NCBI GenBank assembly: GCA_001799195.1 | Contig: MGSU01000050.1 | Span: 1 to 17,083 of the forward strand | Length of the DNA stretch: 17,083 bases | Source: Deltaproteobacteria bacterium RIFOXYA12_FULL_61_11 | GTDB lineage: Bacteria > Bdellovibrionota_F > JAHFAK01 > YA12-FULL-61-11 | Reading direction: 5' to 3' | Shown: positions 1,414 to 14,432 of the stretch, one piece after another | Layout: each line of letters begins with the position of its first letter | How positions within the stretch are numbered: position 1 is the first letter of the stretch | Notes under the pieces: generated by a model | The model's input: the letters and a program-made list of their open reading frames with translations, nothing else | Told to the model about the DNA's origin: nothing | Databases searched by the model: none | Position numbers and translations under genes: made by a program

Positions 1414-1962
1414 TCATTCGAGATACTGGGCTATGGTCGCGTCCACCGTAATTTCCTCATCGAACGTCATGGCCTCGGTGCCGGCCTTGAGGTCGAGGAG
1501 TTTGAACTGGACCGCGAGGCGCTGCTGCGGATCGCTGTACATTCCCACGAGGGCGTAGGCGGCGCCGCACTGCGAACCCAGTTTTTCGGTCTCGAGTCCG
1601 CTGAAAACGCTTGCAAGGTCGAGCTTATGCTTGTCGATGCTACTTTTGAGGGTCGCTGCCGAGGTCACGGTGTGACTTTCTCCTGCAACCAGGATGAGTT
1701 CGCCCTGCAGGAAGGTCGAGAGCGCCGTGGTCTTCCCGCTGTCGTGGAGGACTGGGAAGATCGCCAAGGTACCGCCGTCGGTCTCTTGCAGACGAGCCTT
1801 GATCCGGCGCAAGACGTTTTGCAACAACCAGTTGGTATCCTGATCGAGATCCGCCTCCATAGCGGCGGCTTGTTGCAAGGTCTTGTCCGTCGAACGTTGC
1901 TTCTTGGCCGGAGTACAGGCTACTGCCAGGGTGACGAGCAGGAGGACGAGGAGTAGTTTCAT
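1414..1962 (-). CDS. FlgO/CsgG-like lipoprotein
   Basis: 182-residue predicted lipoprotein. The signal peptide MKLLLVLLLVTLAVAC has a clear lipobox (AVAC, lipidated C16); the +2 residue is Thr, which in E. coli would favour outer-membrane sorting. The start at 1962 is chosen because GGAGG lies about 6 bases upstream and the signal peptide follows at once; the open frame extends further 5' but encodes nothing lipoprotein-like. The body resembles FlgO/CsgG-type domains: GTLAIFPV near residue 68, a central helical region with TTALSTFLQGEL, then CGAAYALVGMY and VQFKLLDLKAGTE, the 'absent/present-in-cell adhesin or flagellar accessory' fold. No flagellar gene is nearby, so a flagellar role is not supported. 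It starts 14 bases after the FGE-fold lipoprotein gene and is probably cotranscribed with it. Family assignment rests on fold-like motifs. Confidence 0.8.
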   Translation of the reverse strand: MKLLLVLLLVTLAVACTPAKKQRSTDKTLQQAAAMEADLDQDTNWLLQNVLRRIKARLQETDGGTLAIFPVLHDSGKTTALSTFLQGELILVAGESHTVTSAATLKSSIDKHKLDLASVFSGLETEKLGSQCGAAYALVGMYSDPQQRLAVQFKLLDLKAGTEAMTFDEEITVDATIAQYLE

Positions 1963-1976
1963 GCAATACCTCCAGT

Positions 1977-2837
1977 TCATAGGGTTTCGAGGACACAACG
2001 GAAACCGATGGAACTTCCAGCTTCGAGGGTACCTCGATGGGCCCGGGCATAGGTGCGGAGCTCCGTGGCAGGATCGAGGAAGCTGCCGCCGCGAATGGTC
2101 TTCCCCTCGCTCCCCGCTTCGTTGTTCCAAAGGTTGCTGCACACCGTGCGCAGGCAGCGTTCGAAGAACGACGGGAGGTAGTAGTCCCGGGTCCACTCGT
2201 GGACATTGCCGGCCATGTCGTACAGGGCATAAGGCGAAGCTCCGGCGGGATACGAGCCCACCTCGGAGGAGCCATCAACGCTCTCTTTGCACGCGACGTT
2301 TTCGCAATTCGCACGTTTCCCCGCGGCAACCGCGGGCTCTTCATTGCCCCATGGGTATATCCGATGGTCGGTACCCCGCGCAGCCAACTCCCACTGGGCC
2401 TCGGTTGGTAGATCCCCGCCCTTCCATTGGCAGTACTGCCGTGCCTGCTCCCAGGTCACACAGTTGATTGGGTAGTTCGCACGGCCTTCCTGCAGGTAGT
2501 TGCACTGCACATAGGTCCCGGCTTTGCTGCAAACCGAGGCCTCGACGCAGGCCTGATATTCTTCCGCGGTGACCTCGAAACGGTTGATCTGGAACGCCCG
2601 CAGTTCGATTTTGGCATAGCTCTTATTCTCTTTTTCTCCGAGGCTATTGCCCATATCGAAGGTCGTTTGCGGTATCGCAATGAACTTGTTGGTCTTATCG
2701 GTCAGCGGGGTATCGCTGGGTCCCGCATCTTTATTATCGCCAGAAGGATTGGCAGGATCAGCGGGAGTCTCGTCCCCCGCACCACAGGCGAGCATCGCAA
2801 GCACGCACCCGATCGAGAGTATACGGAGCAGGGTCAT
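1977..2837 (-). CDS. FGE-sulfatase-fold (SUMF1-like) lipoprotein
   Basis: 286-residue lipoprotein. The signal peptide runs to lipobox MLAC (C18), followed by an Asp/Pro/Gly-rich linker (about 19-48). Residues 50-285 form a formylglycine-generating-enzyme-type domain: FDMGNS, INRFEVTAEEY, NCVTWEQARQYCQW, GDLPTEAQWELAARG, YPWGN, YDMAGNVHEWTRD, IRGGSF and a final GFRC. The cysteine pair that does FGE chemistry is absent: where the catalytic segment would be, the sequence reads LRTYARAHRG. It is therefore probably a binding or scaffold protein rather than an oxidase. Ten cysteines in the mature domain (97, 103, 112, 126, 136, 178, 183, 228, 233, 281) suggest several disulphides, consistent with export. 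GAGGA lies about 5 bases before the ATG. It heads a run with the FlgO-like gene 14 bases downstream. Confidence 0.92.
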   Translation of the reverse strand: MTLLRILSIGCVLAMLACGAGDETPADPANPSGDNKDAGPSDTPLTDKTNKFIAIPQTTFDMGNSLGEKENKSYAKIELRAFQINRFEVTAEEYQACVEASVCSKAGTYVQCNYLQEGRANYPINCVTWEQARQYCQWKGGDLPTEAQWELAARGTDHRIYPWGNEEPAVAAGKRANCENVACKESVDGSSEVGSYPAGASPYALYDMAGNVHEWTRDYYLPSFFERCLRTVCSNLWNNEAGSEGKTIRGGSFLDPATELRTYARAHRGTLEAGSSIGFRCVLETL

Positions 2838-2852
2838 GAAGTTCCTCGGTCC

Positions 2853-2877
2853 AGGCTATGAAGATCTTTTCTAGCCT
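2853..2877. promoter_or_regulatory. Inverted repeat overlapping the candidate -10 box
   Basis: AGGCTA (2853-2858) and TAGCCT (2872-2877) are perfect inverted arms. Inside them GAA (2860-2862) pairs with TTC (2869-2871), leaving one unpaired T and a six-base centre. The dyad covers the predicted -10 box of the downstream FGE-fold gene, where a repressor site would be expected. It could instead be an RNA hairpin if transcription starts farther upstream. Confidence 0.4.
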
Positions 2878-2896
2878 GTCCGATGCGGATTTTCAA
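2868..2896 (-). promoter_or_regulatory. Candidate sigma70-type promoter for the FGE/FlgO-like run
   Basis: On the minus strand, TTGAAA (2896-2891) and TAGAAA (2873-2868) are separated by 17 bases, matching the -35 and -10 consensus at 5 and 4 of 6 positions. The predicted transcript would begin near 2861, about 24 bases before the ATG at 2837. It sits in the 106-base gap after the propeller lipoprotein gene. Consensus match only. Confidence 0.45.
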
Positions 2897-2943
2897 TGCG
2901 ATTTTTCTGCAGGGCGCGGGAGGAACTCGAAAGGGAACGGAGG

Positions 2944-4245
2944 TCAGTAGACCGCGATGCTCGAGGGGAATTCTCCGACCTGGACCCGGTTCAGAGCCTG
3001 CAGGCCGCGTGCGTAGTTCATGCTGAGGAAGGAGATGTCGCGGCTGCCCGAATTCACGGTGATGGCATATTTGCCCGCGGGATCGACCCACACCCGCACC
3101 GGCATCGTGCCGACGGACACCGGGGTCATGGGCTCGAAGTTGAGGTTCTGATACTCTTCCTGGAACCCGGTCGGCATGGCGATGTTGCTGTTGAAGCGGA
3201 TCAGGGTCGCGGTGTTGGTAGTCTGGTTGGTGATGACCGCGAGCTTCCCGCTGCGGTCGAACATGACATCGCTGTTGGCGCCGTCTTGCGGTATGGGCAT
3301 CACCGAGGCATTGCGGATCAAGCTCTCAACCCCTTGCGGGTAGACGTTCACGACGCTGGTGTTGGCGGTGAGGATGTTCTTGGTCCGTTCGGCCACGGCA
3401 AGGGCCGAAACCTGGGCATATTGCTGCACGAAGAGGGGTTCGACCTCTTCGCTCCCCGCTACCAGACGATCGAGCTTGAAGACCGTGAACCCGCCGTCGA
3501 TGAAGCTGGAGACGATCAACAGATTGGATACCTCGATCAGATCCACATCGTTCGGCGAGTACTGGACCTCGACGTCGCGAAGGTGGGTCAACGCGCCCCC
3601 TTCGTACTTGAAGATCGAGATCGACCGGCCTGCCCGATTGGCCGAAAATACGTACTTCCCATCACCGGTCTGAACAAGTCGCATGGGCTCGGCTCCGGTC
3701 TCGACCGTGGCCGGAGTCGGCGCGGGGGTTGCGACGGTCTTGCCGTTCGCCGTGGTAGTGCCTGCTTCGACGGCCTTCACGATGGAGTCGATGGGGATGA
3801 CGGAGAGCGAATCCTCACCGGCATTTGCGACGATGAGGACTTTCTTGTCGGTGGTGACCAAGAGGTCCGAAGGATTGGCGCCCGTGGTCAGCTCCAAGGT
3901 GCTGTGCCTGGTCGCGCTGACGGTCGTGGTGCTGTTGTCGAGCAGGCCAAGGTCGGTCGGCATCCCCGTTGCGCCCTGTTGGGTCGGCATCATCCCCATC
4001 GAGGTCGTCTTGGCTGAGAAGGACACCACCGAGACCGTGTTGCTCTGGAAATTGCTGACGAAGGCGAGTTTGCGCTGGCCGCTTGCACCCGCGGCCTGGG
4101 TTGCTCCCGGGACCCCAGCCTGCTGGAAGGCATTCCCCGTCGTACCCGTCGAGGTGAGGTTCTTGTTGCATCCGACGAGGGTCCCGACCAGCGCGGCGGT
4201 CGTCAGGATGGTCACGAGCGTGCTCATTGCTACCATGGAACGCAT
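2944..4245 (-). CDS. Seven-bladed YVTN-type beta-propeller lipoprotein
   Basis: 433-residue lipoprotein. The signal peptide ends in lipobox TLVGC (C26), followed by a Thr/Gly/Ala-rich linker to about residue 55. After that, seven strand repeats can be counted by eye: KLAFVSNFQSNTVSVVSF, KVLIVANAGEDSLSVIPI, KYVFSANRAGRSISIFKY, NLLIVSSFIDGGFTVFKL, NILTANTSVVNVYP, KLAVITNQTTNTATLIRF and KYAITVNSGSRDISFLSM. This is the YVTN/NHL-like pattern, usually a binding platform rather than an enzyme; the ligand is unknown. The ATG at 4245 is preferred over a GTG at 4269 because AAGGGTGG lies about 7 bases upstream and it gives a normal signal peptide. A terminator-like hairpin separates it from the 742-residue lipoprotein gene upstream, so it may have its own promoter. 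Confidence 0.87.
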   Translation of the reverse strand: MRSMVAMSTLVTILTTAALVGTLVGCNKNLTSTGTTGNAFQQAGVPGATQAAGASGQRKLAFVSNFQSNTVSVVSFSAKTTSMGMMPTQQGATGMPTDLGLLDNSTTTVSATRHSTLELTTGANPSDLLVTTDKKVLIVANAGEDSLSVIPIDSIVKAVEAGTTTANGKTVATPAPTPATVETGAEPMRLVQTGDGKYVFSANRAGRSISIFKYEGGALTHLRDVEVQYSPNDVDLIEVSNLLIVSSFIDGGFTVFKLDRLVAGSEEVEPLFVQQYAQVSALAVAERTKNILTANTSVVNVYPQGVESLIRNASVMPIPQDGANSDVMFDRSGKLAVITNQTTNTATLIRFNSNIAMPTGFQEEYQNLNFEPMTPVSVGTMPVRVWVDPAGKYAITVNSGSRDISFLSMNYARGLQALNRVQVGEFPSSIAVY

Positions 4246-4260
4246 GTTCAAACCACCCTT

Positions 4261-4288
4261 CTTTAACACATCATGTCAATTCGGTCAA
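4261..4288 (-). promoter_or_regulatory. Weak candidate promoter for the 433-residue propeller gene
   Basis: TTGACC (4288-4283) is a good -35 box, but the hexamer 16 bases later, TTAAAG (4266-4261), matches only 3 of 6 -10 positions. A second TTGAC lies nine bases downstream of the first. An A-rich stretch (about 4363-4378) lies farther upstream. If used, the leader would be very short, about 10 bases. Confidence 0.2.
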
Positions 4289-4392
4289 GGCCTCGTTCCT
4301 CTTGCGTGATTGGATCGAGGACCTGCCACGCTCGGCTGTTTTGCAAAGATCGGGCCGTAGGGTTGTCGTTTTTTGTCTTGTGATTTCATGCA

Positions 4393-4427
4393 CCAAGAAA
4401 CAACCGCCTGCCAGTCCTCGGGCAGGC
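4393..4427 (-). terminator. Rho-independent terminator-like hairpin
   Basis: On the minus strand GCCTGCC (4427-4421) pairs perfectly with GGCAGGC (4412-4406) around an eight-base loop. It is followed by GGTTGTTTCTTGG, a modest T-rich tail. It lies 24 bases beyond the stop codon of the 742-residue lipoprotein gene, where a terminator is expected. The interrupted T tract makes it moderate rather than strong. Confidence 0.55.
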
Positions 4428-4450
4428 TGGGACATCCGAGGGGCATTCGG

Positions 4451-6679
4451 TCACTGAGCTGTCTGGATGATGGCGTTGCGCTTGCGGAAGTTCGAGAGGT
4501 CGACCACCGAGATCGAGCCGCTGGAGGCATTGGCGATAAAGGCCAGCGGACGGCCCGCGACCTCGAGATAGGTGACCGCGACCGGGTTGGTGCCGAGGGG
4601 GAGGGGTTCACGTCCGTCGAAGGTCTCGAAGACGAACGCATCCTCTCGGGTGGTGGGGTTGAGCGGCGCCGGATCGATGCGGAAACCGACCGCACCCTCG
4701 TCGCTCTTGTAATCGAAGCCTTCCAGGGCTCTCTGCCGCTGGAGTCCCGAACGGGTGCCGACAACGGTATAGGTGCCGTTCGCGCGGAGATGGAAGGGCA
4801 ACTCCGCGCCGAGGAGGGCCTGGCGGTCGAGTTCCCGCGGTTGGACTCGCACCCGGTGCGAGTCCAGGACCTCGACCAGGACGAAATCATAGTGCAAATC
4901 GTCGAGTTCGAGCACCAGTACATCTGCTCTTTCGGGGAGGATGGTCTTCACGTTCCGAGGCGCGCCCCCCCTGGCCGCAGGATGGGTATAGGGAGTATTC
5001 CCCTCGTCGACCTCAGGATACATCCTCGGTCGCAGAGGTTCGTCTTCGAGTTCGACCGGGATCTCCTCGGCCGGCAAGGGCAGGTACGGTACGACCTCGG
5101 TGAAATCGAGGTCGGCGGCGGTGAGGATGAAGTCCTGGCCGAGCACGCCCCGTCCGGCACTGCCGGGTATCACTCCCTCGTAGGTCACCACGAAGGTTTC
5201 ATCCTTGGTGACACCATCGGTGGTGGAGAGGAAGCTCATCCTCGGCTTCGAACGGACCTCTCCGGTGGCGAGCTCGTCCTTGAAGGCCGGATAGGCCATG
5301 ACGAAGCCACTCTCGCTGCCCTGGGCGTGCGGATAGAGATCGACTTGGAACAGTTCGGGATTCTCGTTCGCGGGATCGAAGAACCTGAGGTCGCCGTTGC
5401 GATCGGCCGCCAACAGCAATTGCACCATGCCCTCGTGGGTATCGGCCAAGAGCGCATGCGTCCTGGCCACGAGGGGATGGCTCAGGGCCAACAACGTTGG
5501 TTGGGCACTGAAGTACGGGGCACTGCGCTCGGCGATGGTACCGCTCTTGTAGTCGACGAAGATCAGGGTGGGGCGTTCCTGGGGAGCCAGGACCAACTGA
5601 TCGGTCTCCGGGAGATAGAGGACCTTGCTGGCCGCGGGGAGGAGATCGAAGGTGCGATGCAGCACCAGTGTGTAAGAATCGTCGTTCTCCTCGAGGAGCA
5701 ACTCGACCATCCGCTCCTGCTCGAGATCGGGGATGAGGAGATGCGGCACGTCCTGGCGTAAGAACACGGTCGGGGTCCCGATACGCGAGGACAGCGTGAC
5801 GGGAAGGACCGCCACTTCCTCGTGATCCTCGAGGGTATAGAGGGCCACGACTGCTTGCCCATCGGCTTCTTCCACCGAGAACAAGAGATGTTGGTGGAGG
5901 GCCAACCCGAGAATGGTCCTCCGGTTCACCTTGAGTGGCCGCAAGCTATTGGTCCTGAATGCGAAAAAGTCCTTCGAGGTGGTGAGGTACTTGCCGTTGC
6001 CGACCTTGAAGGCACACCCGCTGGCCGCGTGCTCGAACGTCTCTCCCAGGCCGACCTCGCCCATTTCCCGCGGTCCCTGAGCGGAATACGCGGTGACCAC
6101 GAAACGTTTCCGCCGCTCGGAGTAGCTGACCTTCCATTGGGCTTCCGGGACCTTGGCAGGGTCGAGCCGCAGTCCATTGAGGAATGGGTTCGACGGCCGG
6201 CCCTTGTCCACGAACACGGGGAGTTCGGACGAGGCCACGGTCTCGGAACCCAGAACCTTGAAAGTATAGGTTGGCTTAGAGGGATCGAGGGTCAATTCCA
6301 ACTCGACCAAGTAGCTCTGGCCGCCGATGCTGGTGGCCAAGACCAGCGAAACCACGCGGCCGATCTGTCTCCAGAGCATCGCGTCGATCAGTTGACCCCC
6401 GACGAACACCGGTTGGACCTCGTCCTCGTACACGGGAAACAGGTCGAGAAAGCGGCCGCGGTGCTGGGCATAGACCGAGACAGAGCTATTACCCCGGTTG
6501 ACCGTGACCAGATAGCGTTCCTTCTCCCCCACCTCGACCCCGAAGAGCCGGAAGGGATCTTGGAGGTTGGAGGTGTGGACGTTGCGTCGCAATTGGTCCC
6601 CGCACCCCAGTATCAGCACCGCCAGGCAGACCAGGCTAGTGCGGGTTGCGTATCGTGCCGACCGGCAGATTGTGTTCAT
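4451..6679 (-). CDS. Large lipoprotein with propeller-like repeats at both ends
   Basis: 742-residue lipoprotein of no family I can name. The signal peptide ends in lipobox LILGC (C26). Near the N-terminus is a propeller strand pair (RYLVTVNRGNSSVSVYA). Further strand repeats follow (VVSLVLATS, HLLFSVEEADGQAVVALYTL, HLLIPDLEQERMVELLL, RPTLIFVDY, GMVQLLLAADRNGDLRFFDP). After an acidic, Pro-rich middle, the last 40 residues carry a textbook YVTN strand (LAFIANASSGSISVVDL). This layout suggests a propeller closed by its N- and C-terminal strands with a large insertion, or two propeller modules. The ATG at 6679 lies inside the upstream gene, giving a 44-base overlap; a TTG at 6685 is possible. 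No later start would keep the signal peptide, so the overlap looks real and suggests translational coupling. Confidence 0.83.
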   Translation of the reverse strand: MNTICRSARYATRTSLVCLAVLILGCGDQLRRNVHTSNLQDPFRLFGVEVGEKERYLVTVNRGNSSVSVYAQHRGRFLDLFPVYEDEVQPVFVGGQLIDAMLWRQIGRVVSLVLATSIGGQSYLVELELTLDPSKPTYTFKVLGSETVASSELPVFVDKGRPSNPFLNGLRLDPAKVPEAQWKVSYSERRKRFVVTAYSAQGPREMGEVGLGETFEHAASGCAFKVGNGKYLTTSKDFFAFRTNSLRPLKVNRRTILGLALHQHLLFSVEEADGQAVVALYTLEDHEEVAVLPVTLSSRIGTPTVFLRQDVPHLLIPDLEQERMVELLLEENDDSYTLVLHRTFDLLPAASKVLYLPETDQLVLAPQERPTLIFVDYKSGTIAERSAPYFSAQPTLLALSHPLVARTHALLADTHEGMVQLLLAADRNGDLRFFDPANENPELFQVDLYPHAQGSESGFVMAYPAFKDELATGEVRSKPRMSFLSTTDGVTKDETFVVTYEGVIPGSAGRGVLGQDFILTAADLDFTEVVPYLPLPAEEIPVELEDEPLRPRMYPEVDEGNTPYTHPAARGGAPRNVKTILPERADVLVLELDDLHYDFVLVEVLDSHRVRVQPRELDRQALLGAELPFHLRANGTYTVVGTRSGLQRQRALEGFDYKSDEGAVGFRIDPAPLNPTTREDAFVFETFDGREPLPLGTNPVAVTYLEVAGRPLAFIANASSGSISVVDLSNFRKRNAIIQTAQ

Positions 6680-7823
6680 AGTCAAAAACCGTGATGCTGT
6701 CGGATAGGAAATTGGTCACATACCCTCGGCCGCTCGGCTCGTGGAATACCAGGTTCATCGGTCCGTTGCCGGTATCGAGCTCCTTCACCACGCTGCGGGT
6801 CACGAGGTCGAGGACCGTCATCATCGAACTCTCGTAGTCGAGTACGTACAGAGATCGACCGTTCGGGGCCAACGCCAGGGTCGAGGGTTCGGTCCCCGGG
6901 ATCGGGATCTCGTCGATGATCATGGAGGTCAGGGGCTCGTGCGCGACCTGGTTGTCCTCAAGCATGGATAAGTCGAGTACCAACACTCTGTTCTGACTGA
7001 GACTGGACACGTAGGCCAGGGATCGGGCCTCGTCCACCGCGATCCCGCGGACTCCGGCCGTGCTGCCGCCGAGGTTTCGTTCCAGGTACACATAGCCCTC
7101 GACCTGAGGTCTGGCCAAGTCGACCACGAAGACGATGTTCGCGTTGGTGGATCCGGCCAGGGCGAAGCGTCCGTCGGGCGTGATCGCCACGGTACACAGC
7201 CCGATCCCGCGGGAGAACCGGAAGGTAGCACCCTCGGTCGAGTCCAGGGCCAACTCGACCACCCGGGGGGGGGCTCCCTCGAACGTCACGACCGAGAGAA
7301 CCCCGGTGAGGGTGTTGGTGGCCGCGAGGGTGGTCTTCCCTTCATCGGAGCGGTGCAAGGCGAAGGCCCCGGGGTTGCTGTCGAGGAAGATGCGTTGGTC
7401 GAAGGTCATCGTGATGGCTCGCGCACCGGTCCGGTGGAGCCGGTAGAGGTCCAGGCTGTGATCGTCCTTCTGCGTCAGGTACAGGACCTCGCCCTCGAGG
7501 CGAAGGTCCATGCCGAGGTTGGCGATGGTGTGGACCTCGCCGAGCACCAGTTCGCCCGCGGTCCCGGCCTCGAGTTCGAGGATCGAGATCGAACCGCTGG
7601 TCTGGGAGAGGTCGAAGTTGGAATTGACCACCAGGGCGAGTGGGGGTTGCCCTGCCTGGTTGAGGATGCTCAGGCCGACCGGGCTGTTGAGGCTGCCGTC
7701 GACCTCGCGCACGTCGAAGACCTGGGACGAACAGGAGGTCAGGGTGACGAGCAGGAGACCCAAGACCCGCCCTGTCAACGACCTCCCGGTCTTTCCCCTG
7801 TCACCGTTTGCTACCGAATGCAC
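6636..7823 (-). CDS. Seven-bladed YVTN-type beta-propeller lipoprotein
   Basis: 395-residue lipoprotein with signal peptide ending in LTSC (C31). Seven strand repeats are visible: LALVVNSNFDLSQTSGSISIL, VLYLTQKDDHSLDLYRL, TTLAATNTLTGVLSVVTF, FALAGSTNANIVFVVDL, LAYVSSLSQNRVLVLDL, SLYVLDYESSMMTVLDL and GYVTNFLSDSITVFDY. The VTPDGR/LAPNGR-type turns between blades (AITPDGRFA, LAPNGRSL) are typical of the family. The GTG at 7823 has AGGGGGT a few bases upstream and gives a normal-length signal. An ATG at 7853 is possible, but its AGGAGG abuts it with no spacing; a TATACT box (7865-7860) sits just before it without a good -35. The gene follows the IDH gene by 91 bases and overlaps the next lipoprotein gene. 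A run of nine C on the coding strand lies at 7273-7265. Confidence 0.85.
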   Translation of the reverse strand: MHSVANGDRGKTGRSLTGRVLGLLLVTLTSCSSQVFDVREVDGSLNSPVGLSILNQAGQPPLALVVNSNFDLSQTSGSISILELEAGTAGELVLGEVHTIANLGMDLRLEGEVLYLTQKDDHSLDLYRLHRTGARAITMTFDQRIFLDSNPGAFALHRSDEGKTTLAATNTLTGVLSVVTFEGAPPRVVELALDSTEGATFRFSRGIGLCTVAITPDGRFALAGSTNANIVFVVDLARPQVEGYVYLERNLGGSTAGVRGIAVDEARSLAYVSSLSQNRVLVLDLSMLEDNQVAHEPLTSMIIDEIPIPGTEPSTLALAPNGRSLYVLDYESSMMTVLDLVTRSVVKELDTGNGPMNLVFHEPSGRGYVTNFLSDSITVFDYEHNLPVGTIRNPH

Positions 7824-10336: not shown

Positions 10337-11503
10337 TCAGATCGGCCGGTCGATCCTCAACTCCCGGCCGCCGAAGAGGACCTTGCCCCGCCCGAAACGA
10401 AGGACGAAAGCCCATAGATAGACGACCAGGGCCAAGCCTAGGCCCAAGGGGGCCAGCGCTGCCGGGGCAACTCTCTTGCCCATGCCTCTGCGCTGCAGCG
10501 CCAGCAAACCTACCGTGCTGACCAGCACGGCGAGGTGGGGAAAGGTTGCCGCAGGTGTGCCGAGAGCGAGTGCGTACAGCGCGCAACCCATGCTACAGCC
10601 CAAGGCTCCCAAGCTTCCGAGGAGGAGCAGGAAGGTGCCGGGACCGAAGCCGAGCCAGGGTGCGCCGGCCGCGGTCATCCGAGCCCACCCGCGCAGGGCC
10701 TGGCTCAAAGTCGCATAATTGCGGCACTCGAAGAGCTGGGCCTGCGGGACATAGTGATAGGGCAAGGCCTCGCGCTTGCAGAGCCGGCCCAGGGCGAGAT
10801 CATCTTGGGTGAAGGTAGCGATGCGGCGATGTCCGCCCAGGTCGAGGTAGGTCCGGCGATCGAACAGCACAAACTGCCCGGTGACCCAGGTGATCGGATC
10901 GGCGGGATCGTCGATGGCTCGGAGCGGCATGAACAGGAAGGTGCAGAGATAGGTCACGTCCTCGAGCACGTCGACCAGAAGACTGTGGTTGGGATAGATC
11001 CCGCCACACGAAAAGACCTTGGCACCGTGAACTCGGCAGTGCGTCAAGGCTAGGCCGAGACTCGAGGGGCGCACGGCCACATCCGCGTCGAGGAAGAGCA
11101 GCCATTCGCCCGTCGCTACGCTCGCTCCCCGCCACAAGGCCAAGGATTTGCGGTTGAGGCCGGGTTCGCCTACGTCCGGCGCGGCCATGATCTTCAGGGG
11201 CAACCGGTCTTTCCAGCGTTTGGCCCGCTCGACCGTGGCGTCGTTCGAGGCATCGTCGACGACCACGACTTGGGCAAGCGGAACGTCGCTCCGGCCGAGC
11301 GAGGCAAGGCACGCGTCGATGTTCTCCTCTTCGTTCCGGGCCGGGATGATGATCGAGACCGTGGGCCAGGGTTTCCCCTCATGCTCATCGGTCTCGACCA
11401 TAACAGGGCGCCTCGCCAGACGCCGCGCTTGGAATAGGGCCCGGACGAAGGCCGCGAGCAGGACCACGAACGCGGCTAGGGCACAGGGAAGGGAAAAACT
11501 CAT
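10337..11503 (-). CDS. Membrane-bound GT2-family glycosyltransferase (HpnB/CrtQ-like)
   Basis: 388-residue inverting glycosyltransferase of family GT2. An N-terminal membrane segment (about 4-24) precedes the catalytic domain. That domain has SIIIPARNEEENIDACL (50-66), VVVVDDASNDAT (79-90), the metal-binding DAD (139-141) in LLFLDADV, WVTGQFVLF (206-214), catalytic-base-type TQDD (232-235) and QALRGW (268-273), a variant of the QxxRW product-binding motif. Three or so hydrophobic segments close the protein (about 290-312, 322-337, 347-369). This plan matches HpnB-like and carotenoid-glycosyltransferase-like enzymes that act on lipids at the inner membrane; the actual acceptor cannot be read from sequence. 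The ATG at 11503 has AGAGGG five bases upstream, better than a GTG at 11524. It diverges from the sulfotransferase gene. Confidence 0.88.
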   Translation of the reverse strand: MSFSLPCALAAFVVLLAAFVRALFQARRLARRPVMVETDEHEGKPWPTVSIIIPARNEEENIDACLASLGRSDVPLAQVVVVDDASNDATVERAKRWKDRLPLKIMAAPDVGEPGLNRKSLALWRGASVATGEWLLFLDADVAVRPSSLGLALTHCRVHGAKVFSCGGIYPNHSLLVDVLEDVTYLCTFLFMPLRAIDDPADPITWVTGQFVLFDRRTYLDLGGHRRIATFTQDDLALGRLCKREALPYHYVPQAQLFECRNYATLSQALRGWARMTAAGAPWLGFGPGTFLLLLGSLGALGCSMGCALYALALGTPAATFPHLAVLVSTVGLLALQRRGMGKRVAPAALAPLGLGLALVVYLWAFVLRFGRGKVLFGGRELRIDRPI

Positions 11504-11551
11504 GGAAGCCCTCTGGAAGAGCACCTCCGGCTCATCCTAGTCGGGTCATGA

Positions 11552-11583
11552 AAAATAGCAACCGTATTGAATTTCTTTGACAA
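11552..11583 (-). promoter_or_regulatory. Weak candidate promoter of the glycosyltransferase gene
   Basis: The minus strand carries TTGTCA (11583-11578) and an extended -10 TGC-TATTTT (11560-11552) with a long 20-base spacer. The region is A/T-rich compared with both neighbours. The -35 lies in a TTTGACAAA palindrome that also reads TTGACA on the plus strand, but no plus -10 follows it at the right distance. Confidence 0.25.
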
Positions 11584-11647
11584 ACACCTTGCGCCCTCAT
11601 CCCCGTCATGGTACATCGACCTTGATCCTTTCGCACCAAGGCCCGTC

Positions 11648-12496
11648 ATGGTCCCCCCCCTCCCCGATACCGAGAGAGACGCCGATCCCTCCTTGGTGTT
11701 CATTATCGGGTTGCACCGCTCGGGAACGACCTTCCTCTACCAGACCATGGCCGACGGCCTACCCGTCGCTGCGGTACGGCTCGTCCATGTGCTCTGCTGG
11801 CGCGAACTGAGCGCCCCCGAGGGCCCTTCGACCCTCGAGACCTTGCGTGCCGCCCTGAACGAGACCTTCCGCGCGAGAGGCATCAGCGACCGCAAGATCG
11901 ACCGGATCCACGTCAGCGCCAATACCGTCGAAGAATACGGCTGGATTCTACGCTATGCCGGTGGTTCCATGTCCCTCCGCGAAGCCACCCTGCCGGTCTT
12001 TCGCGAACTGTGTTCCCTCGTTCCCAGGACAGGAGAACCCGAAGGTCCTCTCGTACTCAAGAATCCCTGGGACACCGGCCGCGTCGCGTGGTTGGTCACA
12101 ACCTTCCCCTCCGCCCGTTTCGTCTTCCTCTCGCGCGATCCCGAGGCCATCCTCCGCAGCCAGGTCAACGCGGCCGTCTCCTATGCCACCGAACCCCATC
12201 CCTTTCTCGGCTTGTTGCTCGCACCCATCCCGAGGGGGTGGCTCTACCTCGCGGTGCATCGCTGGGGACGCCTCCTGCTTGGGACCGTGCTCTTCCGCGC
12301 CGCGGTGAGAGTCCTCCTGCGAGCGAGCATCCGGCGGGAGCTGAAGAAGTTTAGCGCCGCCCTCTCCGCGGTCCCGGCAAGCCGCCGCTTCGAGTTGGCC
12401 TACGAAGACCTCTGCACAGACCCCCCCGGGTGGCTGCAGCGCCTTCGCGAGTTCCTGGGCACAGTCCCGGGAGATTCTCCCGGCCGGAAGAGCTGA
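11648..12496 (+). CDS. Sulfotransferase family protein (PAPS-dependent)
   Basis: 282-residue protein with the two nucleotide-binding signatures of PAPS sulfotransferases. The 5'-phosphosulphate loop is GLHRSGTTFLY (21-31), close to the N-terminus as is usual. The 3'-phosphate segment is RFVFLSRDPEAILRSQ (157-172), containing the conserved Arg and Ser. VEEYGWILR, LVLKNPWDTGR and a late LAYEDLC segment also fit prokaryotic sulfotransferases. The frame is open back to a TTG at 11567. That first stretch has poorer codon bias and no ribosome site, so the ATG at 11648 is chosen, with the TTG form (309 residues) possible. Eight C bases follow the start codon. It would sulphate a hydroxyl or amino group on an unknown acceptor; divergence from a lipid-type glycosyltransferase gene makes a glycolipid one guess. 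Confidence 0.82.
   Translation: MVPPLPDTERDADPSLVFIIGLHRSGTTFLYQTMADGLPVAAVRLVHVLCWRELSAPEGPSTLETLRAALNETFRARGISDRKIDRIHVSANTVEEYGWILRYAGGSMSLREATLPVFRELCSLVPRTGEPEGPLVLKNPWDTGRVAWLVTTFPSARFVFLSRDPEAILRSQVNAAVSYATEPHPFLGLLLAPIPRGWLYLAVHRWGRLLLGTVLFRAAVRVLLRASIRRELKKFSAALSAVPASRRFELAYEDLCTDPPGWLQRLREFLGTVPGDSPGRKS
12467..12483 (+). other. Strong short hairpin at the end of the sulfotransferase gene
   Basis: CCGGGAG-ATT-CTCCCGG forms a perfect seven-pair stem with a three-base loop, overlapping the last codons of the sulfotransferase. No T tract follows, so it is not a standard terminator. It might help separate the converging sulfotransferase and radical SAM transcripts, whose stop codons are 63 bases apart. 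Confidence 0.35.
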
Positions 12497-12559
12497 ACCG
12501 GTAGCAAGGGTTTCCTCCCGGAGCCGCCGTGCGCCTCCCTCGCCCGGGTTTCAGGATAG

Positions 12560-13846
12560 TCAGGCCTTCGGTGAGGCGGTCAGGTTGACCCCGAAGTTCT
12601 TGAGCTCCTCGAGGCGGCAACTCCAGTAGAGCTTGCCCCGGTAGAGGGTCATGTTCGGGCAGCCGTCGCACATGTTCAGGGCCCCGTCCTGTTGGAAGTC
12701 TATGGGTTGCTGGACGAGGAACCACTGCAGGTAGATCGGTTCGAGCAGGAGACGCGGCCGACGCACGACCTTCCCCAAAAAACGCCACGCCGCGGACCTG
12801 ACTCCCCGGTCGAAGGGGAAGAACAAGAACAGCACGAGGAACCCCATGGTGAAGGTACGCCGCGGACTCAGGGCCAGCCATTTCCCGGTGAAGAAATGGG
12901 CGACGTACTGGGCGAGCTCGTAAAAACGCGGCCCGACATACCCCAGGGTTTCGCCGGCCCAGAGGAACCGGGTGGCCAGGAGCCACTTGAGCGCTTGCGG
13001 GGTATGGGTACCGCCAAGATACGCGGCGGGCTGGAAAACCGGGTCCGCTCGCCTGATGGTTTCGACCACGTCGGAAACGAGGAGCGGGGGATAGGTGGCC
13101 AGTTCCGGACTGGAGAAGTGGGGATCGAGTTTCACCTTGTTCCCGGCGGCGAAGAAGTCGAGGTGTTCACCCATGACCGGGTCGCGGAACAGGATGAAAT
13201 GCATGGAATTACACAGGTCGGGGTGTTCCCCTGCCCAGCGCACCAGTTCCGGCACTTCGGCCACGTTCTTGCCCGAGACCGTGATGTTCATGCCGCAGGT
13301 CACCCCACCGCAATCCCGAACCATACCCGCAAGGCGTTCGCGCAGCGGGAAGAACGTCGCCTCGTCCGCGCCTTCGGGGATCTCCTTGCGACGCTGGGTC
13401 GAATCGATGTGGAAGGTGAAGGAGGCTACCCCGGCCTCGCGAAGCGCGGCCAACAATTCCGGCGTGAGCGCCTGGCCATTGGTGTTGATCGAGGGTTTCC
13501 ATCCCATCTGCCGGCCGAGCCGAACAATCTCGACGAGCTCGGGGTGCAGGAGCGGCTCTCCGCCGGCAATGCTCAAACCATCGCTCTTCCTGATCCGCCG
13601 GAGTTCTTGCAGTTCGGTGCGAATTTCCTCCAGGGTCTTGTGCCCCTCTTTTCGACTATCCCGATAACACCCTTGGCAGGTGATGTTGCACTTGGTGGTC
13701 ACCTCGAGCCAGGACATGCCGTTGTCGGTCGTGGACCAGGGTAGCCGGAAGAGTTGCAAGGGGTCGAGCGTCTTGCCCGCTTCGCTCGTCTGGTGTTGCA
13801 CTCGTCCCTCCGCGTGAGTCGGCCGTTGAAGAGGCTCGACGGTCAT
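12560..13846 (-). CDS. Radical SAM enzyme with extra C-terminal cysteine motif
   Basis: 428-residue radical SAM protein. The cluster-binding CNITCQGC (C53, C57, C60) follows WLEVTTK; the SAM-binding GGEP is at 95-98, with HIDS (146-149) and NITVSG (187-192) later in the barrel. After the core comes a basic region with a hydrophobic stretch (about 331-346), then CDGCPNMT (C393, C396) and WSCRLEE (C410), which look like ligands for an auxiliary iron-sulphur cluster as in SPASM-type proteins. The reaction is not predictable; lipid or peptide tailoring are both possible, and the hydrophobic stretch hints at membrane association. Its ATG overlaps the stop of the upstream membrane-protein gene in an ATGA, so the two are translationally coupled. 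It converges with the sulfotransferase gene. Confidence 0.9.
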   Translation of the reverse strand: MTVEPLQRPTHAEGRVQHQTSEAGKTLDPLQLFRLPWSTTDNGMSWLEVTTKCNITCQGCYRDSRKEGHKTLEEIRTELQELRRIRKSDGLSIAGGEPLLHPELVEIVRLGRQMGWKPSINTNGQALTPELLAALREAGVASFTFHIDSTQRRKEIPEGADEATFFPLRERLAGMVRDCGGVTCGMNITVSGKNVAEVPELVRWAGEHPDLCNSMHFILFRDPVMGEHLDFFAAGNKVKLDPHFSSPELATYPPLLVSDVVETIRRADPVFQPAAYLGGTHTPQALKWLLATRFLWAGETLGYVGPRFYELAQYVAHFFTGKWLALSPRRTFTMGFLVLFLFFPFDRGVRSAAWRFLGKVVRRPRLLLEPIYLQWFLVQQPIDFQQDGALNMCDGCPNMTLYRGKLYWSCRLEELKNFGVNLTASPKA

Positions 13847-14400
13847 TCCTGACCGGCGAGAGCCCGGTCGAGCACCGCCTCCAAGGGCGCTTGATTGGCT
13901 TGCGGCCGGTTGCGCAAGGCCAGTTTTCCCGCGGAATCCACCCTTGCCAGGAAGATATTATCGGTGAGCAGGGATCTGCACCCGAACTCGCGACTCGAGG
14001 TGGGACAGAACAACGAGTACAACCCGTAATGGTTGCACAAGAACACGCGCAGGCGTCGCGGCTCGCTCCCGTTCGGGGTCGAACGGTGCGCTGCGGCACG
14101 TTGTAGCGTTGACACCAGGGCCATGGGAAGGGGTTCCGTGGAATGAAGGTCCAAGAATTCGTCCTGATGACGGTAAGAGAAGAAGGGTTGGGGATACATG
14201 ACGAACAGGGCCATCAGGCCGAGCAAGGCCAAGACGAGGCCGGCGAGGAACTTGAACAGGGCAGGGAGGAAGGCCCGCTCGCGATGCTCGCTCAACCGGA
14301 AGCTCTTCAGGCGGGTGATGGTTCGAAGGGCGACCGGTATCGGGGAAGGTGCGCGGTCATGGCGGGAGGGCGGGACACCCCCTGGTTTCCTCGGTCGCAT
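13843..14400 (-). CDS. One-pass membrane protein of unknown function, coupled to radical SAM gene
   Basis: 185-residue protein not assigned to a named family. A basic N-terminus (about 1-45) is followed by one transmembrane segment (about 48-69), then an outside domain of about 115 residues. That domain has motifs LDLHSTEPLP, RVFLCNHYGLYSLFCP and LLTDNIFLARVD, so the soluble part probably lies in the periplasm. It contains three cysteines (122, 132, 141). From memory, similar hypothetical proteins continue into an HExxH-type zinc motif, which is absent here; that comparison is uncertain. The ATG at 14400 is used (a TTG lies six bases upstream); the ribosome site is weak. The stop overlaps the radical SAM start by four bases. 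A good promoter candidate lies just upstream. Confidence 0.75.
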   Translation of the reverse strand: MRPRKPGGVPPSRHDRAPSPIPVALRTITRLKSFRLSEHRERAFLPALFKFLAGLVLALLGLMALFVMYPQPFFSYRHQDEFLDLHSTEPLPMALVSTLQRAAAHRSTPNGSEPRRLRVFLCNHYGLYSLFCPTSSREFGCRSLLTDNIFLARVDSAGKLALRNRPQANQAPLEAVLDRALAGQE

Positions 14401-14432
14401 CGTCAACTCGTGAGTACTGGCACGACCCGGCG

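Follow-up and report, generated by a model that had tools for sequence, protein, structure and literature searches.

A recurrent pair of genes for propeller-type lipoproteins in several little-known bacterial phyla

Sequence profiles place a dyad of lipoprotein genes, here called A and B, in five or more little-known bacterial phyla, in differing genomic surroundings. It was recognised in a stretch of 17,083 nucleotides (the window), where A and B are followed by three further lipoprotein genes (C, FGE and D) that look like local neighbours, unrelated to the dyad. It is probable, though well short of certain, that A and B constitute a coupled, two-propeller, lipid-anchored envelope scaffold, constitutively present and acting in the manner of BamB, and that C, FGE and D are unrelated lipoprotein genes of local occurrence. 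A translation-coupled lipoprotein pair that is near-universal in several uncultured phyla would represent an envelope component absent from the view provided by model organisms.

Gene organization of the window

Five consecutive open reading frames on the minus strand are transcribed in the order A, B, C, FGE, D:

7823-6636, minus strand: gene A, lipoprotein with a seven-bladed YVTN propeller, first of the dyad (GTG start; lipobox LTSC-S, C31)
6679-4451, minus strand: gene B, predicted propeller lipoprotein with two inserted beta-modules, second member of the dyad (lipobox ILGC-G, C26)
4427-4406, minus strand: terminator-like hairpin just 3' of B (7 pairs, 6 of them G-C) with a weak tail
4269-2944, minus strand: gene C, YVTN/lactonase-type propeller lipoprotein, outside the conserved unit (lipobox LVGC-N, C26 if numbered from the ATG at 4245)
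2837-1977, minus strand: FGE gene, FGE-fold lipoprotein, lineage-specific neighbour (lipobox MLAC-G, C18)
1962-1414, minus strand: gene D, short lipoprotein with a putative divergent CsgG-N/FlgO-type domain, neighbour (lipobox AVAC-T, C16)

A hydrophobic stretch precedes the lipobox cysteine in each of the five, and none has aspartate at position +2. Reading of the frames thus confirmed the description in an earlier note on this DNA of five tandem genes on one strand, each with a signal peptide and a lipobox (C31, C26, C26, C18, C16). Chance lipoboxes can be ruled out for A and B because the lipobox of both is conserved across phyla. The start of B lies inside the end of A, an overlap of 44 nucleotides; gaps of 181 nucleotides (B to C), 106 nucleotides (C to FGE) and 14 nucleotides (FGE to D) separate the other lipoprotein genes. 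The hairpin at 4427-4406 is a possible end of the A-B transcript, but a weak candidate, as the surrounding region overall shows no more hairpins than shuffled sequences do. Pfam and NCBIfam matches identify a monomeric isocitrate dehydrogenase gene (idh) upstream of A and, downstream of D, a receiver-domain gene (55 nucleotides after D) followed 20 nucleotides later by a D-aminopeptidase (M55) gene that is cut by the end of the window.

Conservation and genomic surroundings of the A-B pair

Profile searches identified relatives of B in both genomes of the window's phylum (2/2), in all five of the phylum of G034, in all seven of the phylum of G184, in seven or more of the nine of the phylum of G172, and in a divergent form in G015, the sole genome examined of its phylum; a search of named genomes with the single B sequence gave no match, and one with a three-member alignment of B matched G001 alone to a named genome. 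A lies directly upstream of B on the same strand at 19 of the 20 loci where the arrangement is readable (the window, G001, G034, G059, G060, G062, G184, G389, G390, G391, G392, G036, G318, G172, G021, G397, G309, G393 and G015, with G393 counted although its A is cut by a contig end). The exception is G398: there A comes after yidC at the edge of a contig, and the B that was found is on a different contig. In G061 the contig breaks off before A would be reached. The stop codon of A and the start codon of B overlap by 1 or 4 nucleotides at most loci (44 in the window), and overlaps of 1 or 4 nucleotides usually go with coupled translation.

The window's own genes can be assigned by profiles drawn from other phyla only: with the window's phylum left out, the A profile scores window A at 186.6 bits, C at 44.0 bits and B at 13.2 bits, and the B profile scores window B at 161.9 bits and A at 36.8 bits. 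By these scores, each of the two window genes belongs to the family whose letter it bears. In plasmid records, the matches to A were all partial propeller matches of low identity. Propeller lipoproteins as such are not new. A coupled pair of this kind, with inserted modules and spread over several phyla, was not described in the papers searched, which says nothing of papers outside that set.

The surroundings of the pair vary with the lineage. The order is idh-A-B in the window and A-B-smc in four genomes of the phylum of G034, with just B-smc visible in G061; in the fifth genome of that phylum (G062), TamB-like and TamA-like Omp85 genes precede A-B. A follows yidC in six genomes of two phyla (G172, G021, G309, G397, G398 and G015), with B next in five of the six, and rnpA stands before yidC in most of the first five. 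No constant neighbour of A-B was seen in the phylum of G184. The yidC, mnmE and rnpA products were recognised by eye in the sequences, and the identifications were extended by phmmer; the TamB-like gene was identified by eye. Since the surroundings change by lineage, A-B is the unit. In G015 the order is yidC-A-B-mnmE (locus L136, 2612-8131), and the pair sits within an otherwise well-conserved rnpA-yidC-mnmE region. The yidC-A-B-mnmE and A-B-smc orders should make the pair easier to find and test in cultivable relatives. Secreted proteins with long runs of aspartate (DDDDDDD) are frequent in G184, G036 and G318 (loci L067, L068 and L070).

Predicted folds of A and B

Gene A passes the cut-off of the YVTN repeat family (TIGR02276 of NCBIfam, 41.2 bits, cut-off 27.85) and that of the Pfam Lactonase family (PF10282, 25.9 bits). 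Its predicted model (med6a843d0b35, pLDDT 80.9) shows a YVTN propeller resembling the structures of YncE (Z 32.5), 1l0q (Z 32.6) and Lp49. YncE of Escherichia coli (3vgz), the Methanosarcina surface-layer protein 1l0q and Lp49 of Leptospira (3bws) thus share the fold of A (Z about 31-33) and have YVTN-type repeats; none of the three is known to be a member of a coupled two-gene pair.

For gene B, searches of Pfam, NCBIfam (to E 0.1) and PHROGs gave nothing significant, and hence it does not reach the TIGR02276 repeat cut-off. In its predicted model (mbf54804fb5d5, pLDDT 74.4), a propeller closed by the N- and C-terminal parts aligns with YncE 3vgz (Z 23.8 over 282 residues, rmsd 3.0), from which B differs by two inserted beta-modules at residues ~150-232 and 476-690. 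The propeller fold of B is read from this model and from profile similarity to A (hhalign of the two family profiles, 99.1%, E 7e-19), a relatedness fitting either an old duplication or a shared fold. The earlier count of three propeller-type genes therefore stands by family matches for A and for C (PF10282, 41.9 bits, above the Pfam cut-off), and for B as a prediction. General WD40 propellers dominate the Foldseek lists for the A and B models, which gave no functional hint.

The inserted module of the B type occurs once in B of the phyla of G184 and G172, and in the latter phylum in A too. In G109 (locus L138, contig C47, 8000-22000), one open frame of 13,861 amino acids is matched at several places by the beta-module inserted in B; the module may therefore serve as a repeat unit of giant proteins as well.

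Proposed role of the A-B pair

The two products share lipid anchors and predicted propeller folds and would be translated together, features that suggest a stoichiometric two-propeller complex. Coupled translation would cause A and B to be made in similar amounts; both would be lipid-anchored, probably in the outer membrane and facing the periplasm, although the +2 rule of E. coli may not hold in this phylum; and the two would form a stoichiometric heteromer. Near-universality in four phyla and the presence of housekeeping neighbours suggest a constitutive role, in which the heteromer would be a binding scaffold in envelope biogenesis, acting like accessory lipoproteins of the BamB type. The likeness to BamB of the BAM complex, a lipid-anchored propeller with a proposed accessory scaffold role, is a functional analogy only: BamB is a single protein, A and B are two, and neither matched the BamB/PQQ propeller family (Pfam to E 1, NCBIfam to E 0.1).

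The weakest step is the process served. Assembly of membrane or outer-membrane proteins is named here, by analogy, as a tentative best guess that may well be wrong; the reason is that A-B follows yidC in two phyla and, in one genome, a TamA/TamB-like pair. The proximity of the pair to yidC, smc and idh, all housekeeping genes, may reflect expression level rather than shared work. A further-reaching reading is unlikely: that several candidate phyla have in A-B a core complex of envelope assembly that has escaped recognition, its two lipid-anchored propellers working with the YidC insertase or an Omp85-type machine and replacing or complementing BamB-like accessory proteins there. Propellers are versatile, and A and B could also be binders of small molecules or metals, or enzymes.

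BtuG of Bacteroides has a propeller fold, and we rank as the main rival to an envelope scaffold the improbable reading that A and B are a surface-exposed ligand-capture pair, like the BtuG-type propeller lipoproteins that pass vitamin B12 to a transporter. The precedents are surface propeller lipoproteins of Bacteroides with a role in vitamin B12 hand-over (PMC6143338, PMC10404256), and A-B, if placed on the cell surface, would share that character with BtuG (PMC6143338); sequence matches in the PDB include propeller entries of the YncE family and of surface layers. However, no gene for a transporter or TonB-dependent receptor was recognised beside A-B in the loci examined, A is nearly always paired with B, and near-universality in four phyla with housekeeping neighbours is more in keeping with a core function than with a locus for nutrients.

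Very improbable is an enzymatic function of the lactonase/6-phosphogluconolactonase kind or of the heme-d1/NosZ-like propeller kind. A and C both pass the PF10282 cut-off, and there are weak matches of the NirF/cytochrome d1 type, but the 6-phosphogluconolactonase equivalog (NF008258, cut-off 370 bits) is missed by A (18.4 bits) and C (19.6 bits), all other NCBIfam equivalogs are likewise far below cut-off (L-NosZ, 31.2 versus 700; hydrazine synthase beta, 32.6 versus 560), and B has no significant Pfam match. A coupled envelope scaffold thus remains the preferred reading of A-B.

Genes C, FGE and D and their neighbours

The window's genome was compared with one other genome of its phylum, G001 (JAHFAK01, 'Deltaproteobacteria bacterium isolate nzgw173'). 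In G001, A stands next to B, neither C nor FGE is matched, and the match to D, at E 0.08 and broken by a stop, is negligible. Across the other phyla, A-B lies amid other genes, and the five genes were found together at none of the other loci examined. The proposal of the earlier note that all five products may form one assembly accordingly fits A-B in part, as a pair of consecutive lipoprotein genes coupled over several phyla, and is not supported for C, FGE and D, which fall outside the pair; the outcome that the note had named as refuting it, related genomes in which the genes are scattered, is the one observed. Besides the absence of C, FGE and D from G001 in credible form, the B-C and C-FGE gaps and the weak hairpin argue against one transcript. 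The tie that it had drawn to the receiver and D-aminopeptidase genes comes down to physical proximity in one genome.

There is accordingly only a slim chance that the five lipoproteins, the receiver protein and the D-aminopeptidase form one outer-membrane assembly specific to this lineage. Five lipoprotein genes do stand in a row on one strand, with FGE and D just 14 nucleotides apart, and the window's genome is isolated, with no close kin in which a lineage-specific system could be compared. Against it stand A-B in G001 without C, FGE or a credible D, the gaps of 181 and 106 nucleotides with the hairpin after B, the numerous FGE domains of the window's genome, and the lack of the full set of five in any other genome examined.

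The FGE gene product has the FGE-sulfatase fold (PF03781, E 2.7e-45, 155.5 bits, Pfam cut-off 23.3). It was rejected as an active formylglycine-generating enzyme, as the catalytic cysteine pair is missing: where bacterial FGE has LCHESYC, the aligned residues here are LDPATEL. It resembles GldK/PorK of type IX secretion in being an FGE-fold lipoprotein, and GldK is its best NCBIfam match (TIGR03525, E 4.5e-32); with 111.9 bits where the cut-off is 350, it falls far short of that family, and type IX secretion, considered for an FGE-fold lipoprotein beside propellers, was rejected. In contrast to GldK/PorK, the window's protein is one of some 20 FGE-domain stretches in its genome and has no link to A-B elsewhere. 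About 20-21 further stretches in the window's genome match the FGE protein, and none in G001, which by sequence matching is a lineage-specific expansion. These stretches lie on contigs C206, C186, C20, C337, C90, C85, C132 and others of that genome (G000), several of them in frames of 550-1400 amino acids.

Gene D had been called FlgO-like. Its match to FlgO (PF17680, E 0.11, 12.8 bits) is below the gathering score of 22.6, and the label was rejected; what lies behind it, besides that match, is distant kinship to proteins with CsgG/FlgO domains, such as a relative in G169 (E 3e-4, 22% identity over residues 6-180) that itself matches CsgG and FlgO (39.0). The name PilZ-like for the tail of the receiver protein was likewise dropped, since Pfam gave nothing for residues 126-249 even at E values as high as 5.

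Elsewhere in the window (10337-14406), a GT2 glycosyltransferase gene (10337-11524, minus strand) is followed by a sulfotransferase-family gene (11567-12496, plus strand) that adjoins a radical SAM gene (12560-13846, minus strand), with a gene that has no Pfam match beside the latter (13843-14406, minus strand). These four could be a small modification cluster.
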